A DNA stretch of 64,000 nucleotides, taken from the NCBI RefSeq assembly GCF_038725785.1, contig NZ_CP109796.1, forward strand, positions 1,922,001 to 1,986,000. The letters are read 5' to 3'. Positions 38,839 to 63,080 of this stretch are shown in pieces (the stretch's first letter is position 1; each line of letters starts with the position of its first letter). Source of the DNA: Termitidicoccus mucosus (GTDB taxonomy: Bacteria; Verrucomicrobiota; Verrucomicrobiia; Opitutales; Opitutaceae). The notes beneath the pieces are model-generated. The model did no database searches, had not been told where the DNA came from, and worked only from the letters and a program-made list of their open reading frames with translations. Made by a program: the position numbers and the translations under genes.

Positions 38839-39879
38839 ATGCAAACCCAGCTCACCGCTCTCCTCGAACAAGCCCGCGCCGAACTTCTCACGCTCAAGGC
38901 GCGCCCCGAGTTTGAGGCCGCCAAGGCCCGCTACGTCGGACCCAACGGCGCCCTCACCGCCTGCATGAAACAAATGGGCGGCCTTCCCAAGGAGCAAAAG
39001 CCCATCGTCGGCAAACTCATCAACGAAGTAAAAACCGCCCTTGCCGCCGAACTCGACGCCACCCTCGCCCGCATCGAGGCCGCCGAACTCGACGCCCAGC
39101 TCGGCCCGCCCATCGACCCCACCCTCCCCTCGCCCGACGACCACGAGGGACTCCGCCACCCGCTCACCCAAACCCGCGACCTCATCGCCGCCACCTTCCG
39201 CAAGCTCGGCTTCGTCATCGCCGAGGGCCCCGAGCTGGAAAGCGAGTGGTTCTGCTTCGACGCCCTCAACACCCCCGACGACCACCCCGCCCGCGACATG
39301 CAGGACACCCTCTACTTTCCCCCCGCGACCCGCGCCACCGAAACCACCAAGAAAGCCGACGAAGCTTACGTCCTGCGTCCCCACACCAGCTCCGTGCAAA
39401 TCCGCACGATGCTCGCGCGCAAGCCCCCCATCCGCATCGTCGCCCCCGGACGCTGCTTCCGCCGCGACACCGTCGATGCCACCCATTCCGCCAATTTCCA
39501 CCAAATCGAGGGCCTCTGGGTTGATCGCAACGTCACCGTCCGCGACCTCAAGAGCGTGCTCGACAGCTTTGTGCGCGAGATCTTCGGCGCCACCGCGCAG
39601 ACCCGCCTGCGCCCCAGCTTCTTCCCCTTCACCGAGCCGAGTTTCGAGATGGACATCAAGGCCCCCAACCTCGGCCGCCTCAGCGACCGCTGGCTGGAAA
39701 TCATGGGGTGCGGCCTCGTTGACCCGAAAGTTTTCAAGAACGTCGACATCGACCCGGAGCAATGGACCGGCCTTGCCTTCGGCATGGGCATCGAACGCAT
39801 TGCCATGCTCATCCACGGCATCGACGACATCCGCCACTTCTACGCCAACGACCTCCGCTTCCTCCGCCAGTTCGCATGA
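38839..39879 (+). CDS. pheS: phenylalanyl-tRNA synthetase, alpha subunit
   Basis: A 346-residue class II synthetase subunit that aminoacylates tRNA-Phe with PheT. The start at 38839 (MQTQLTALLEQ) opens the N-terminal coiled coil. Motif 1 region is GPELESEWFCFDALN, motif 2 FRRDTVDATHS and motif 3 GFGMGIERIAM-type (GLAFGMGIERIAM). Length is normal. PheT lies 527 bp downstream instead of directly adjacent, because a GxxExxY gene with flanking inverted repeats sits between them. Confidence 0.97.
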   Translation: MQTQLTALLEQARAELLTLKARPEFEAAKARYVGPNGALTACMKQMGGLPKEQKPIVGKLINEVKTALAAELDATLARIEAAELDAQLGPPIDPTLPSPDDHEGLRHPLTQTRDLIAATFRKLGFVIAEGPELESEWFCFDALNTPDDHPARDMQDTLYFPPATRATETTKKADEAYVLRPHTSSVQIRTMLARKPPIRIVAPGRCFRRDTVDATHSANFHQIEGLWVDRNVTVRDLKSVLDSFVREIFGATAQTRLRPSFFPFTEPSFEMDIKAPNLGRLSDRWLEIMGCGLVDPKVFKNVDIDPEQWTGLAFGMGIERIAMLIHGIDDIRHFYANDLRFLRQFA

Positions 39880-39892
39880 GCAATCGCGGAGT

Positions 39893-39919
39893 GTTTTTTT
39901 AGACAGAATGAACGGAATG
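39893..39919 (+). repeat. left arm of inverted repeat flanking the GxxExxY gene
   Basis: A 27-bp arm (GTTTTTTT then AGACAGAATGAACGGAATG), 13 bp after the pheS stop. Its reverse complement recurs at 40373-40399 with 25 of 27 positions identical. Short direct units (GAATGAAC, AAAATGA) continue inward and supply the start codon of the GxxExxY gene. Confidence 0.85.
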
Positions 39920-39926
39920 ATTTTGA

Positions 39927-40328
39927 ATGAACAAAATGAGCGACACTCCGGAACAGCAGCCCTATGACCTCTCTGGAAAAATTATCGGATTGGCGATGAA
40001 AATTCACTCCACGCTCGGCCCGGGATTTCTCGAATCCGTCTATCAAAACGCCCTCGCCCACGAATTGCGCCGCGCAAACATCCCCTTCCAAACCGAAGTC
40101 CGCCTCAATGTTCATTACGAAGACGCCATCGTGGGTATTTTTGATGCCGACATGGTGGTCACCTGCTCGCTCATTGTTGAAAACAAATCCGTTCAAAAAC
40201 TCGCCCTCGCGCATGAAGTGCAACTCGTCAATTACCTGACCGCCACGAAAATCGAGGAAGGACTGCTCCTCAACTTCGGCTCCGACCGCTTGGAATTTAA
40301 GAAAAAATACCGCCACCGCTCCGAATAA
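39927..40328 (+). CDS. GxxExxY family protein, inserted between pheS and pheT
   Basis: A 133-residue protein with the family hallmark GPGFLESVY (G-x-x-E-x-x-Y at about 32-38), followed by an ADMVVTCSLIVENKSVQKL strand-turn-strand that resembles a nuclease-like (PD-D/ExK-type) core: D, then E-x-K. The function of GxxExxY proteins is not known. They are scattered as single genes in many environmental bacteria. The start may be 39927 or Met4 (39936). Both lie in the inward part of the left repeat arm. A second, divergent GxxExxY gene lies at 62602 in the nuo operon. The gene sits on the same strand as pheST, so transcription is not blocked. Confidence 0.9.
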   Translation: MNKMSDTPEQQPYDLSGKIIGLAMKIHSTLGPGFLESVYQNALAHELRRANIPFQTEVRLNVHYEDAIVGIFDADMVVTCSLIVENKSVQKLALAHEVQLVNYLTATKIEEGLLLNFGSDRLEFKKKYRHRSE

Positions 40329-40372
40329 CACCCCATCCGATCCGCCTAAAATCCATTCCGTTCATTTTCTCC

Positions 40373-40399
40373 CATTCTGTTCATTCTGTCCAAAAAAAC
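40373..40399 (-). repeat. right arm of inverted repeat flanking the GxxExxY gene
   Basis: Reverse complement of the arm at 39893-39919 (25/27). It ends 7 bp before the pheT ATG (40407). Together the arms bound a 507-bp cassette. I see no obvious target-site duplication outside the arms. Confidence 0.85.
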
Positions 40400-40406
40400 T
40401 TTCCCG

Positions 40407-42914
40407 ATGAAAATCTCCCTCCAATGGCTCTCCCGCTACATCGACCTCTCCGGCCTCCCCGTCGCGCAAATCACCGACGCCCTTCCCATGCTCGGCCTCG
40501 AAGTCGAGGAAACCGCCAGCGCCGGCCTCCAGCCCCTCAAAAATGTCGTCATCGGCAAAATCCTCTCCTTCGAGAAACACCCCAAGGCCGACAAGCTCTC
40601 CGTCTGCTCCGTTGACACCGGCGACCCCGCCGGCCCGCGCCAAATCGTCTGCGGCGCGAAAAACTTCGCCGCGGGCGACCTCGTCCCCGTCGCCCTCCCC
40701 GGCGCCGTCCTCCCCGGTGATTTCGAGATCAAGGTCAGCAAGCTCCGCGATGTCGAATCGCAGGGCATGATGTGCTCCGCCCGCGAACTCGGCCTCGGCG
40801 ACGATCACGCCGGCCTCCTCATCCTCACCGCCCGCGGCCTCCCGGTCGGCACCTCCATCAACGACCACTTCCCGCCGCCCGACACCGTCCTCGACCTCAG
40901 CATCACCGCCAACCGCGGCGACTGCCTCGGCCACATCGGCGTCGCCCGCGACCTCGCTGCGTATTTCGACCGCGCCCTCCGCCTGCCCGGGCTCACCGAC
41001 GCCACCCCCGCCGCGCCCGCCCCCGCCTCCGAGGCCGCTCCCCTCCTCGCCTCCGTCTCCACCACCATCGAGACCTGCCCCTACTATACGGCCACCGCCA
41101 TTCGTGGCGTCCGCGTGGCGCCGTCCCCCGACTGGCTCGCCCGCGACCTCCTCGCCGTCGGCCTGCGCCCCATCAACAACATCGTGGACATCACCAACTG
41201 GGTCATGCTCGAAACCGGCCAGCCCCTCCACGCCTTCGACGCCGCCAACATCGGCGGGCAACAAATCAACGTCCGCCCCGCCCGCCCCGGCGAAACCATA
41301 AAACTTCTCGACCAAGGCCGCGTCGTCGCGCTCGAGACCACCGACTGCGTCATCGCCGACGCCCAAAACGCCCTCGCCATCGGCGGCATCATGGGCGGCG
41401 AAAACAGCGGCGTCACCGCCGCCACCGCCAACATCGTCCTCGAAGCCGCCTGGTTCCGCCCCGGCCCCATTCGCAAGACCAGCCGCCGCCTCGCCCTCTC
41501 CACCGACAGCGCCCAGCGCTACACCCGCGATGCCGATCCCGCCGGCGTCCTCTTCGCCGCCCGCCGCGCCACCGCCCTCATCCTCGAACTCGCCGGCGGC
41601 ACAGTCATCGGTCCCCGCGCCGTCGTCGGTGCCCCCTCCCGCGGAGACCGCGCCATCGACCTCACCGCCGACTACGTCCGCGCCCGCTGCGGCTTCGATA
41701 TCGACGACACCACCATCGCCGGCACCTACCGCCGCCTCGGCTTCACCGTCGCCCAGGCACCCTCCGGCGCCTGGCGCGTCACCGTTCCCTCCTTCCGCTC
41801 CGACATCGACCGCCCCATCGACCTCGTCGAGGAATTCGTCCGTATCCACGGCACCACTACAATCCCCTCCACGCCCATCGCCGCCCCCGCGCCCGGCGAC
41901 ATCGAAAACGACGACCCGCTCGCCACCTTCACCCGTCGCGCCGGCGCCCACCTAGCCGGCCAGGGTTTCGCCGAGTGCGTCCACTACACCCTCTGCGACG
42001 GACACGACCTCGCCGCGCTCTTCGGCCAGCCGATGGCCGACGCCCTCGCGCTCGCCAATCCCCTCACCAGCGAACTCGGCCACATCCGCCCCTCGCTCAT
42101 CCCCGGCCTGCTCGACGCCCTCGCGCTCAACCTCGCCGCGCACAACGCCCCCCGCCGCCTCTTCGAGATCGGCCGCGTCTTCCGCCCCGCGCCCGACGGA
42201 GCCTTGCGCGAACTCACCGCCGTGTCGTTCGTCGTCCTCGCCGCCCCCGCCACCCGCGCCTGGCTCACGCGCGCCCCCGTTGACTTCTACCACGCGAAAA
42301 AACTCGCGCTCGACCTTGCGGCGCTCGCCGGCGTTTCCGCCGCCCGCCTCCAGTTCCATCTCATCACCGACAACGCCGCCGCCGGCGCCGGAAAAGTTGC
42401 CCCTCTGCCCGCCCCCGCGCTCTGGCAGCGCAACCACTCCGCGCAGACCACCGACCGGGCCCGCCAAATCGAGCTCGCCTGCGGCCTCATCGACGCGAAA
42501 ACGGCCCGCGCCCGCGACATCAAAGGCCACGCCATCATCGCCGGCGAATTGCTCCTGCCCCGGCAGATTTTCACGACCGAGTCAAAACGCACCCGCTTTC
42601 AACCCTTCACCGCCTATCCCCCGACCACGCGCGACCTCGCCCTCGTGGTTGACGCCGCCACGCCCGCCGGGGACGTGGCCGACAAACTCAAAACCACCGC
42701 GGCCAAAATCGCCGGCAAAACCTTCGCCGTGGAAGCGATCAACATCTTCGACCTCTACCAAGGCCAAAACCTTCCCGACGGCAAAAAGAGCCTCGCCCTC
42801 TCGCTGACCTTCCGCGCCTCCGACCGCACGCTGACCGACGACGAAGTCAACGCCGCCTTCACCAAGCTCCAGACCGACCTCGCCAAATCCACTCCCTGGC
42901 AAATCCGAAAATAA
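40407..42914 (+). CDS. pheT: phenylalanyl-tRNA synthetase, beta subunit
   Basis: An 835-residue subunit with, in order: N-terminal B1 domain with an EMAP/OB-like tRNA-binding region (about 40-160, FEKHPKADKLSVC), the B3/B4 editing domain (about 215-400, with PINNIVDITNWV and MGGENSG), the B5 domain, a degenerate catalytic core and the C-terminal anticodon-binding FDX-ACB domain (about 740-835, starting YPPTTRDLALVV). It proofreads mischarged tRNA-Phe and helps bind tRNA. Length is near the usual 790-830. The ATG lies 7 bp after the right repeat arm of the cassette. Confidence 0.97.
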   Translation: MKISLQWLSRYIDLSGLPVAQITDALPMLGLEVEETASAGLQPLKNVVIGKILSFEKHPKADKLSVCSVDTGDPAGPRQIVCGAKNFAAGDLVPVALPGAVLPGDFEIKVSKLRDVESQGMMCSARELGLGDDHAGLLILTARGLPVGTSINDHFPPPDTVLDLSITANRGDCLGHIGVARDLAAYFDRALRLPGLTDATPAAPAPASEAAPLLASVSTTIETCPYYTATAIRGVRVAPSPDWLARDLLAVGLRPINNIVDITNWVMLETGQPLHAFDAANIGGQQINVRPARPGETIKLLDQGRVVALETTDCVIADAQNALAIGGIMGGENSGVTAATANIVLEAAWFRPGPIRKTSRRLALSTDSAQRYTRDADPAGVLFAARRATALILELAGGTVIGPRAVVGAPSRGDRAIDLTADYVRARCGFDIDDTTIAGTYRRLGFTVAQAPSGAWRVTVPSFRSDIDRPIDLVEEFVRIHGTTTIPSTPIAAPAPGDIENDDPLATFTRRAGAHLAGQGFAECVHYTLCDGHDLAALFGQPMADALALANPLTSELGHIRPSLIPGLLDALALNLAAHNAPRRLFEIGRVFRPAPDGALRELTAVSFVVLAAPATRAWLTRAPVDFYHAKKLALDLAALAGVSAARLQFHLITDNAAAGAGKVAPLPAPALWQRNHSAQTTDRARQIELACGLIDAKTARARDIKGHAIIAGELLLPRQIFTTESKRTRFQPFTAYPPTTRDLALVVDAATPAGDVADKLKTTAAKIAGKTFAVEAINIFDLYQGQNLPDGKKSLALSLTFRASDRTLTDDEVNAAFTKLQTDLAKSTPWQIRK

Positions 42915-43241: not shown

Positions 43242-43308
43242 AGGTAGGGCGAGGCGTCCCGCCGAGCCGCGAATACCCAATGGCTCGGCGGGACGCCTCG
43301 CCCTACCT
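43242..43308. repeat. 27-bp perfect palindromic repeat between gatC and gatA
   Basis: Arms at 43242-43268 and 43282-43308 are exact inverted copies (core GGTAGGGCGAGGCGTCCCGC and GAGCC) around a 13-nt loop. Outer bases (ACCATT / AATGGC) extend the symmetry imperfectly. There is no T-tract, so it is not a normal terminator. It looks like a REP/MITE-like palindromic element. Confidence 0.9.
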
Positions 43309-55770: not shown

Positions 55771-55778
55771 AACCAATC

Positions 55779-55934
55779 ACGAATTACAAATGACGAATTA
55801 CGAATTAAACCAACCACCGGCATCCCGCCCTTGCCCATTCGCCCGAATCCGCCCGCGCTCATTCGCGGCCGGCCACGCGTCCCCCGCCATTCGTCATTCG
55901 TAATTCGTCATTCGTAATTCGTCATTCGTAATTA
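55779..55934. repeat. low-complexity inverted repeat between nuoD and nuoI
   Basis: The left arm (55779-55808) reads ACGAATTACaAATGACGAAT and more; the right arm (about 55888-55934) consists of repeated attcgtcattcgtaattc units, the reverse complement of the left. A 79-bp GC-rich core separates them. Related arms occur at 58836 and 61015. Not a terminator. Confidence 0.88.
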
Positions 55935-57840: not shown

Positions 57841-57938
57841 AATTAAGAATTAAAAATTAAGAATTATGAAAACGATCCCACTGCAAACCCGACGCGGCAG
57901 CGCCCGTCTCCCCCATTCTTAATTTTTAATTCTTAATT
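57841..57938. repeat. 24-bp perfect AT-rich inverted repeat between nuoH and nuoJ
   Basis: Arms 57841-57864 (AATTAAGAATTAAAAATTAA then GAAT) and 57915-57938 are exact reverse complements around a 50-nt core of ordinary GC content. The sequence differs from the attcgt family but the layout is the same: low-complexity arms, unrelated core, intergenic position starting right at the previous stop. Confidence 0.92.
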
Positions 57939-58835: not shown

Positions 58836-58969
58836 AATTACGAATGACGAATTACAAATTACGGCACCGCCGCGCCATTTGTCCCTCGCGTTCCTGTCTT
58901 TCAGGCAGCCTCCCTGTTTTCGCCGCCGGCGCGGCAGCGCCCTCCATTCGTAATTCGTAATTCGTAATT
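58836..58969. repeat. attcgt-family inverted repeat between nuoK and nuoL
   Basis: Left arm 58836-58863 (AATTACGAATGACGAATTAC and more) and right arm 58945-58969 (cattcgtaattcgtaattcg and more) are imperfect reverse complements (about 22 of 24). They enclose an 81-bp GC-rich core. The arms are closely related to those at 55779-55934. Confidence 0.88.
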
Positions 58970-62601: not shown

Positions 62602-62985
62602 ATGACAGAAAACGAAATTGGCAAAATCGTTGTGAATGAAGCAATGCGGCTCCACATGGAATTGGGGCCGGGATTGCTGGAGACGGTTTACGAAGTCCTG
62701 CTTGCCAAAATACTCGAAAAGCAAGGATTGGCCGTCCAACGCCAAGTCCTCGTCCCAATTCGTTTTCACGGGATGAGTTTCGACGAAGGGTTTCGGGCAG
62801 ACATCATTGTCGGGGAAAAAGTCATTCTTGAGTTAAAATCAGTCGAGCGACCAAACCCCGCCCATAAGAAACAAGTTCTCACCTATTTGAAGCTGACCGG
62901 ATTGAAACTCGGTTTCTTGCTGAATTTCGGGGAGGAGCTCATGAAAAACGGCATCACTCGCGTCATAAACGGACAACTGGAATAA
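62602..62985 (+). CDS. GxxExxY family protein inside the nuo operon
   Basis: A 127-residue protein with the signature GPGLLETVY (about 20-28) and the ADIIVGEKVILELKSVE core (D, then E-L-K), like the gene at 39927 but of a different subfamily (about one third identical by eye). Start at 62602 (MTENEIGKIV). Function unknown; the D/E-x-K arrangement suggests a nuclease-like fold. It stands 44 bp after nuoM and 6 bp before a 35-bp perfect inverted repeat. Confidence 0.9.
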   Translation: MTENEIGKIVVNEAMRLHMELGPGLLETVYEVLLAKILEKQGLAVQRQVLVPIRFHGMSFDEGFRADIIVGEKVILELKSVERPNPAHKKQVLTYLKLTGLKLGFLLNFGEELMKNGITRVINGQLE

Positions 62986-62991
62986 AACATG

Positions 62992-63080
62992 AGGATTCTC
63001 ACACAAAGGCACGGAGGCACAAAGGAGGAGGGGAATATTTTCCATTCCTTTGTGCCTCCGTGCCTTTGTGTGAGAATCCT
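62992..63080. repeat. 35-bp perfect inverted repeat after the second GxxExxY gene
   Basis: Arms 62992-63026 and 63046-63080 are exact reverse complements (core ACACAAAGGCACGGAGGCAC) separated by 19 nt. The arms consist of short near-repeats (cacaaaggcacggaggcac). No T-tract. The hairpin would be one of the strongest in this region. Confidence 0.95.

Follow-up and report, generated by a model that had tools for sequence, protein, structure and literature searches.

Organization of the insert between pheS and pheT

The window (the whole stretch of DNA analysed here, 64,000 nucleotides) carries an insert between pheS and pheT. The pheS gene (38839..39879, forward strand), identified by its reading frame and with a start codon of our choice, ends with a stop codon at 39877-39879, and pheT follows at 40407..42914 on the forward strand. 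Both genes are intact and provide the context of the site. The insert contains a GxxExxY gene (TIGR04256 / PF13366; 133 aa; 39927..40328, forward strand), which belongs to protein clade II and arm type CAGRAT as defined below. The 5' outer arm (39893..39919, forward strand) consists of approximately 9-bp units (CAGAATGAA/CGGAATG), and 25 of its 27 bases pair with the 3' outer arm (40373..40399, reverse strand). The 5' edge lies 13 bp past the pheS stop codon and the 3' edge 7 bp before the pheT ATG. The initial annotation had described a 133-aa GxxExxY ORF within a 27-bp imperfect inverted repeat, with these spacings and with both flanking genes intact, and recomputation on the sequence reproduced all of this exactly. 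The proposal that an inner repeat unit supplies the start codon also holds, as the ATG lies inside the 5' inner unit (GAATGAACAAAATG; 39925..39938, forward strand). A 3' inner unit was read from the sequence at 40354..40368 on the reverse strand. The description of the bounds as palindromes needs correction: the inverted arms are real, but each is a tandem series of units of some 9 bp and not a plain palindrome. The arm-pair score was reached by none of 20,000 shuffles, and when the same geometry was sampled across the window, one of 1,714 positions reached it, which was the element itself. No target-site duplication was seen by eye at this site or at the eutN site of genome G001 described below, with no strain-level empty site for comparison (G-numbers denote genomes and L-numbers loci).

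GxxExxY proteins, named as in NCBIfam, form a widespread family of unknown function. The window ORF matches TIGR04256 GxxExxY (E 3.5e-39, 133.8 bits; curated cut-off 35) and PF13366 PDDEXK_3 (E 7.7e-37, 126.7 bits; cut-off 22), the latter being the sole Pfam family found in the protein. The nuclease-like D...E-x-K pattern noted in the initial annotation is real and near-invariant: in an alignment of 169 homologues, the column of D75 holds D in 168, that of E85 holds E or D in 168, and that of K87 holds K in 169. Downstream, Q99 is kept in 159/169 and Y103 in 163/169 homologues (Q-x3-Y). The dN/dS ratio between the window gene and its G001 orthologue is 0.127. The predicted structure (pLDDT 91.7) has a PD-(D/E)XK fold, the nuclease core for which modelling had been suggested, and its closest match is SSO0001 (Foldseek E 3e-4; 4ic1_G with Z 9.4 and rmsd 4.9 over 103 residues), which we take to be a Cas4. 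The next matches are lambda-type exonucleases and restriction-like proteins, among which middling Z values are common, and tRNA splicing endonucleases appear among the lower-ranked Foldseek matches. A PDB sequence search with the window protein gave nothing below E 0.25. Judged by its modelled fold together with the D...(D/E)xK core, the window protein is a member of the PD-(D/E)XK nuclease superfamily. An assignment to a defence system was rejected, as PADLOC returned weak Cas4 models only. Carriage by phages or plasmids was likewise rejected, with matches at E 1e-5 in 0 phage records and in 8 of 72,556 plasmid records.

Junction occupancy in relatives and arms at other loci

Of the 57 relatives, 56 gave a match to a query made from the window pheS, and 50 allowed the pheS-pheT junction to be measured. 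The comparison of this junction for empty sites, as the initial annotation had proposed, revealed tight junctions of 0–51 bp in 24/50 relatives and various occupants in the others. GxxExxY genes occupy seven junctions and S23 genes four, both confirmed by independent searches. The G041 junction holds an unrelated longer ORF. In G055 (L040), an ORF on the scale of 67 codons, read as a membrane protein, lies within CACAGAG arms, indicating that such arms can carry other genes. Another 13 junctions measure 66–201 bp and contain no gene. Seven of the 50 relatives carry gene-less hairpins at this site, the inverted repeat scoring above 40/40 shuffles in G003, G004, G017, G022, G028, and G030 and above 39/40 in G026. 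Inverted repeats in the six other gene-less junctions of this length were no different from those in shuffles; unit-like sequence was recognized by eye in G014 and G019 although their inverted repeats did not differ from shuffles. A tree holding six of the junction GxxExxY genes as one clade was rejected (p 3.7e-5; the seventh, from G012, was fetched later), and the junction has therefore been filled repeatedly. The gene is thus not shared at this site by all relatives with a vertical phylogeny; it occurs in 7/50 and represents several independent arrivals.

A total of 170 GxxExxY loci were searched for arms, comprising the 30 best matches of relatives, 60 further matches of relatives, and 80 loci from a wide contig scan. 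The wide scan kept 80 of 549 confirmed relatives and was queried with clade I proteins; its sequence titles include Verrucomicrobia, Planctomycetes, Chloroflexi, Acidobacteria, Proteobacteria, Bacteroidetes, Cyanobacteria, and Chlamydiae. Inverted arms with a score of at least 11 flank 147/170 loci against 4.1 expected from 8,500 dinucleotide shuffles, and at a score of at least 15 the count is 115 against 0.04 expected. Arms are thus common around other GxxExxY genes, as the initial annotation had anticipated. A direct-repeat control on the same 170 loci gave 42 at a score of at least 11 and 29 at a score of at least 15, counts that are partly raised because hairpins also adjoin genes. The remaining 23 loci have no detectable arms. 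Among the 147 armed loci, the best unit period is 8–10 bp in 117 and another value in eight, and in 22 no period exceeds that of shuffled arms. No description of GxxExxY genes with such arms was found in the open-access PMC literature. The window insert represents a large class of elements, of which the open-access PMC papers searched gave no description.

S23 genes share this layout. Matches to S23 were found in 38/57 relatives, and 22 of the 30 loci examined have inverted arms at a score of at least 11 (0.8 expected), with a best period of 7 or 14 in 19 of the 22. For one S23 example, the DGR protein Avd gives a weak match (E 0.0015) that stays under the cut-off. In the window, three gene-less hairpins of the S23 type, whose arms repeat about every 7 bp (AATTACGAATGACG..., AATTAAGAATTAAA...), lie at 55775-55926, 57841-57938, and 58836-58969. 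According to PMC4990558, RNase III excises the Coxiella 23S intervening sequence, which carries tandem GACAGAT heptamers upstream of an S23 ORF.

Arm types, protein clades, and gene-less hairpins

Arms were typed by their unit as AG (CRCNRAG), AT (CRCNRAT), AA, CAGRAT, GCCAGGAA, or AACGAAG, requiring an inverted score of at least 11 and one leading type. A protein tree was built for 89 loci of the Opitutales range (one of 90 rows was dropped for a stop codon), of which 63 were typed; the 26 untyped rows comprise 15 unclassed loci, 10 without arms, and one tie. Arm type requires 14 changes on this tree, compared with means of 31.4 after global shuffling and 26.5 after shuffling within genomes. 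For AG and AT alone, four changes are required, compared with 15.9 and 11.6, respectively. In each of these tests, 0/300 shuffles were as low. At least two arm types coexist in 15 of 33 genomes. Of 20 loci fetched later, 14 were typable and without exception took the tree position, clade I side or clade II side, predicted by their arm type (four of 110 rows of the enlarged set were dropped for a stop codon or short length). In the pooled set, clade I contains 26 AG and 0 AT loci and clade II contains 28 AT and three AG loci, with AA-type arms at 10 loci in clade II and one in clade I. AG arms prevail in the wide scan regardless of phylum, the queries having been clade I proteins. The tree neighbours of the window gene are the gene of the congener G001 and L007 of G035, which is 48% identical, lies at another site, and has ACAGGAT-like arms. 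The arm unit sequence tracks the protein clade, also within genomes. This match suggests that the protein may recognize, and perhaps spread, its own hairpins. The pairing offers the GxxExxY family a direct, testable function, namely cognate recognition.

A second GxxExxY gene in the window (127 aa; 62602..62985, forward strand) follows an ORF read as nuoM, and its eight nearest tree rows belong to clade I. A gene-less AG-type hairpin (CACAAAGGCACGGAGGCACAAAG; 62992..63080, no strand assigned) lies 6 bp past this gene and does not enclose it. A near copy of the gene is located 15 kb further on (C1:1999552-1999871; L003, L152), with an identical upstream region and a broken frame, suggesting a duplication of the nuo region.

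In the genome of the window, the window arm sequence gave 63 matches with up to three mismatches, compared with 0 for the reversed pattern. There are 20 inverted arm pairs with a span of 61–94 bp and no outward pairs. Inspection of 30 match places showed hairpins, frequently in mixed clusters in which a linker resembling AAATAAAACGAACCATTATTTT connects several types; their intergenic placement was judged at the inspected loci only. Hairpin types for which no matching gene was found are also present. Six strong hairpins occur in the 64-kb window, compared with 0 in each of 10 simulated windows. A perfect 27-bp GC-rich inverted repeat without tandem units was also observed between two ORFs at 43242-43308. 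A known RNA family was not recognized, since an Rfam search of eight sources gave three tRNAs only. A plain single cassette was set aside because arms elsewhere are mostly gene-less. The initial proposal of a small mobile cassette therefore stands in part: arms at other loci, empty and otherwise occupied junctions, independent arrivals, and the nuclease fold support it, but it is too narrow, since most arms belong to dispersed gene-less hairpins. Arms of this kind also enclose S23 genes and a small ORF, and the proposal missed the co-variation of arms and protein clade.

Two general patterns were used to count arms in the relatives. The 39 GxxExxY-positive genomes have a median of 26 arms (0–307) and the 18 negative ones a median of 0 (0–6). 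Arm numbers differ with the presence of GxxExxY (p 2.4e-8 for all relatives, 0.0016 for members of the family, and 2.4e-4 for the others), a test confounded by phylogeny, genome size, and gaps in MAGs. Arm count correlates with GxxExxY gene number (Spearman 0.73). G009 and G047 contain GxxExxY with 0 matches to either pattern. Among 20 genomes outside the set of relatives, hand-picked from the 80 wide-scan loci, AG arms occur in 10 (up to 80 arms) and in none of the other 10. One Parachlamydiales MAG has 49 AG arms, most of them identical in sequence to those of its GxxExxY gene (L199). With not all genes sampled, genomes with a sampled AG gene have no excess of AG hairpins (p 0.51) and those with a sampled AT gene have slightly more AT hairpins (p 0.024; AT share, p 0.08). 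The genome-by-genome match of AG and AT hairpin counts to AG and AT genes is weak. S23 was rejected as the mover of AG/AT hairpins: the GxxExxY-positive, S23-negative genomes G006, G031, G055, and G047 have 26, 92, 23, and 0 arms, and the GxxExxY-negative, S23-positive genomes G023, G036, and G052 have 4, 1, and 0.

Close relatives differ in their hairpin content. G001 is the sole genus member found with a CACAGAT-type GxxExxY gene (C204), at a junction read as eutN - aldehyde dehydrogenase. G001 also has 68 AT-type arms, compared with 10 in G000 and two in G002, and 23 of its 25 inverted pairs span exactly 79 bp, several sharing the same loop. At the matching eutN junction, G000 and G002 have no GxxExxY gene and contain other sequence instead (121 and 120 bp, respectively), absences in G001 and G002 being soft because these assemblies are 72% and 68% complete; G007 has a different, AT-rich hairpin there. 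The window gene and its hairpins are common to G000 and G001 (50 and 58 matches with up to two mismatches). G002 has 53 arm matches, and those listed are mostly one-strand tandem 9-bp arrays. On its contigs C102, C487, C64, and others, CAGAATG units follow one another on a single strand in long tandem arrays with a 9-bp period and form no hairpins. A search for exact empty sites between gene-less hairpins of G000 and G001 gave no clean case because the flanks of L299 map far from each other in G000. They border a G001 hairpin cluster and correspond to L329 and L323 of G000, 0.8 Mb apart, which may reflect rearrangement at hairpins or MAG misassembly.

Interpretation and comparison with known systems

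On balance, we lean towards a dispersed hairpin system of the REPIN/RAYT kind, in which a metal-dependent, Cas4/RecB-like PD-(D/E)XK nuclease would take the place of the HUH transposase. As part of the same reading, and with similarly modest confidence, the window cassette would be the gene-bearing form of the dispersed hairpin element. The GxxExxY protein would bind the arms of its own element, with folded single strands or cruciforms as the most likely form of the DNA, and would cleave the hairpin at its base or close by. The hairpin, or a copy of it, would then reach another intergenic site, and the gene-less hairpins would be non-autonomous copies moved in trans. Against this reading, no excision or insertion event was observed.

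Two alternatives appear improbable to about the same degree. In one of them, the protein acts on RNA: the arms pair in the operon transcript, from which the insert is removed or in which it is processed, making insertions tolerable, with spread perhaps via RNA. The layout resembles the Coxiella intervening sequence with its S23 ORF, GACAGAT heptamers, and RNase III processing (PMC4990558), S23 genes occupy the pheS-pheT junction in 4/50 relatives, and tRNA splicing endonucleases occur among the lower fold matches. However, RNase III processing would need no sequence-specific arm types, and the top fold matches of GxxExxY act on DNA. In the other alternative, the hairpins owe their movement to a different agent, such as a Y1 (HUH) transposase, and GxxExxY is either their cargo or regulates them at the level of the host. 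A Y1 transposase is present in 43/57 relatives, and S23 and a small ORF also sit between such arms. Against this, GxxExxY-positive genomes without Y1 have 92 (G031), 23 (G055), 19 (G025), 2 (G019), and 0 (G047) arms, nine Y1-positive genomes without GxxExxY have 0–6, and co-variation with arm sequence is unexpected for cargo. The Y1 transposase was rejected as the mover since the hairpin distribution follows GxxExxY and not Y1.

Somewhat less probable still is homing, in which the nuclease cleaves gene-less hairpins of its own type that are already in place and the gene is copied into them during repair. The pheS-pheT junction does hold gene-less hairpins in 7/50 relatives and gene-bearing elements in 7/50, a pattern in which no before-and-after pair was seen because junction types differ between relatives, but gene-less copies far outnumber gene-bearing ones. 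Immobile, vertically inherited terminators or mRNA-stability hairpins beside an unrelated small gene are very improbable: four nadE-hemL loci (names by reading; G006, G007, G029, G033) form one orthologous-looking clade as such inheritance would predict, but it is opposed by the rejection of a single clade at pheS-pheT and by the lineage-specific hairpin expansion in G001.

More broadly, and tentatively, the REPIN/RAYT-like elements may belong to a phylum-spanning hairpin superfamily in which GxxExxY reads 8–10 bp arms, the S23 four-helix protein reads 7-bp arms, units are clade-specific, and the 23S intervening sequence is a special case. If true, this would mean that dedicated small readers exist outside both the HUH and the DDE transposases. 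Cognate recognition by GxxExxY would itself account for large numbers of intergenic hairpins in many bacteria, give REPIN/RAYT a nuclease-based counterpart, and make a link to the long-known, unexplained S23 intervening sequences.

Among known systems, MITEs and BIMEs resemble these hairpins as short non-coding inverted-repeat elements that occur in mosaic clusters with a common linker, but the candidate helper of the hairpins, GxxExxY, is no DDE transposase. We know of no transposon ends that match the gene-less hairpins. Cas4 and RecB-type PD-(D/E)XK nucleases share the fold, the D-ExK core, and Q-x3-Y with the window protein, which Cas4 models match weakly (E 0.005 and 0.0013). However, the GxxExxY protein has about 133 aa, no CRISPR setting was seen in the part of the window that was read, and its TIGR00372 score of 16.7 bits is far below the curated cut-off of 65, so that it is not classed as a Cas4. 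The 23S rRNA intervening sequences likewise have a small ORF between pairing arms, with short repeats in tandem next to its start codon (PMC4990558), and S23 genes in relatives use the same junctions as GxxExxY. Unlike them, the window element lies outside rRNA, between pheS and pheT, GxxExxY is unrelated to S23 by family models, and the arm period is 8–10 instead of 7; with a pheS-pheT site and a GxxExxY gene in place of a 23S site and an S23 ORF, the element falls outside that class.

The closest comparison is REPIN/RAYT (the TnpAREP 'REPtron'), in which, according to PMC3116915 and PMC8266576, intergenic hairpins of two inverted units are dispersed and repeat and protein co-evolve. The likenesses are a single gene beside or within inverted units, as described there (PMC3116915; PMC8266576), dispersed inverted doublets (20 pairs in the genome of the window and 25 of another type in G001), and a repeat that co-varies with the protein on the tree, which whole-genome hairpin counts do not confirm. 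The two differ in that the GxxExxY protein is a PD-(D/E)XK family member and no HUH (Y1) protein, that hairpin numbers follow GxxExxY and do not need Y1, and that GxxExxY arms are tandem 8–10 bp units whereas REPINs are short palindromes with a GTAG tag.
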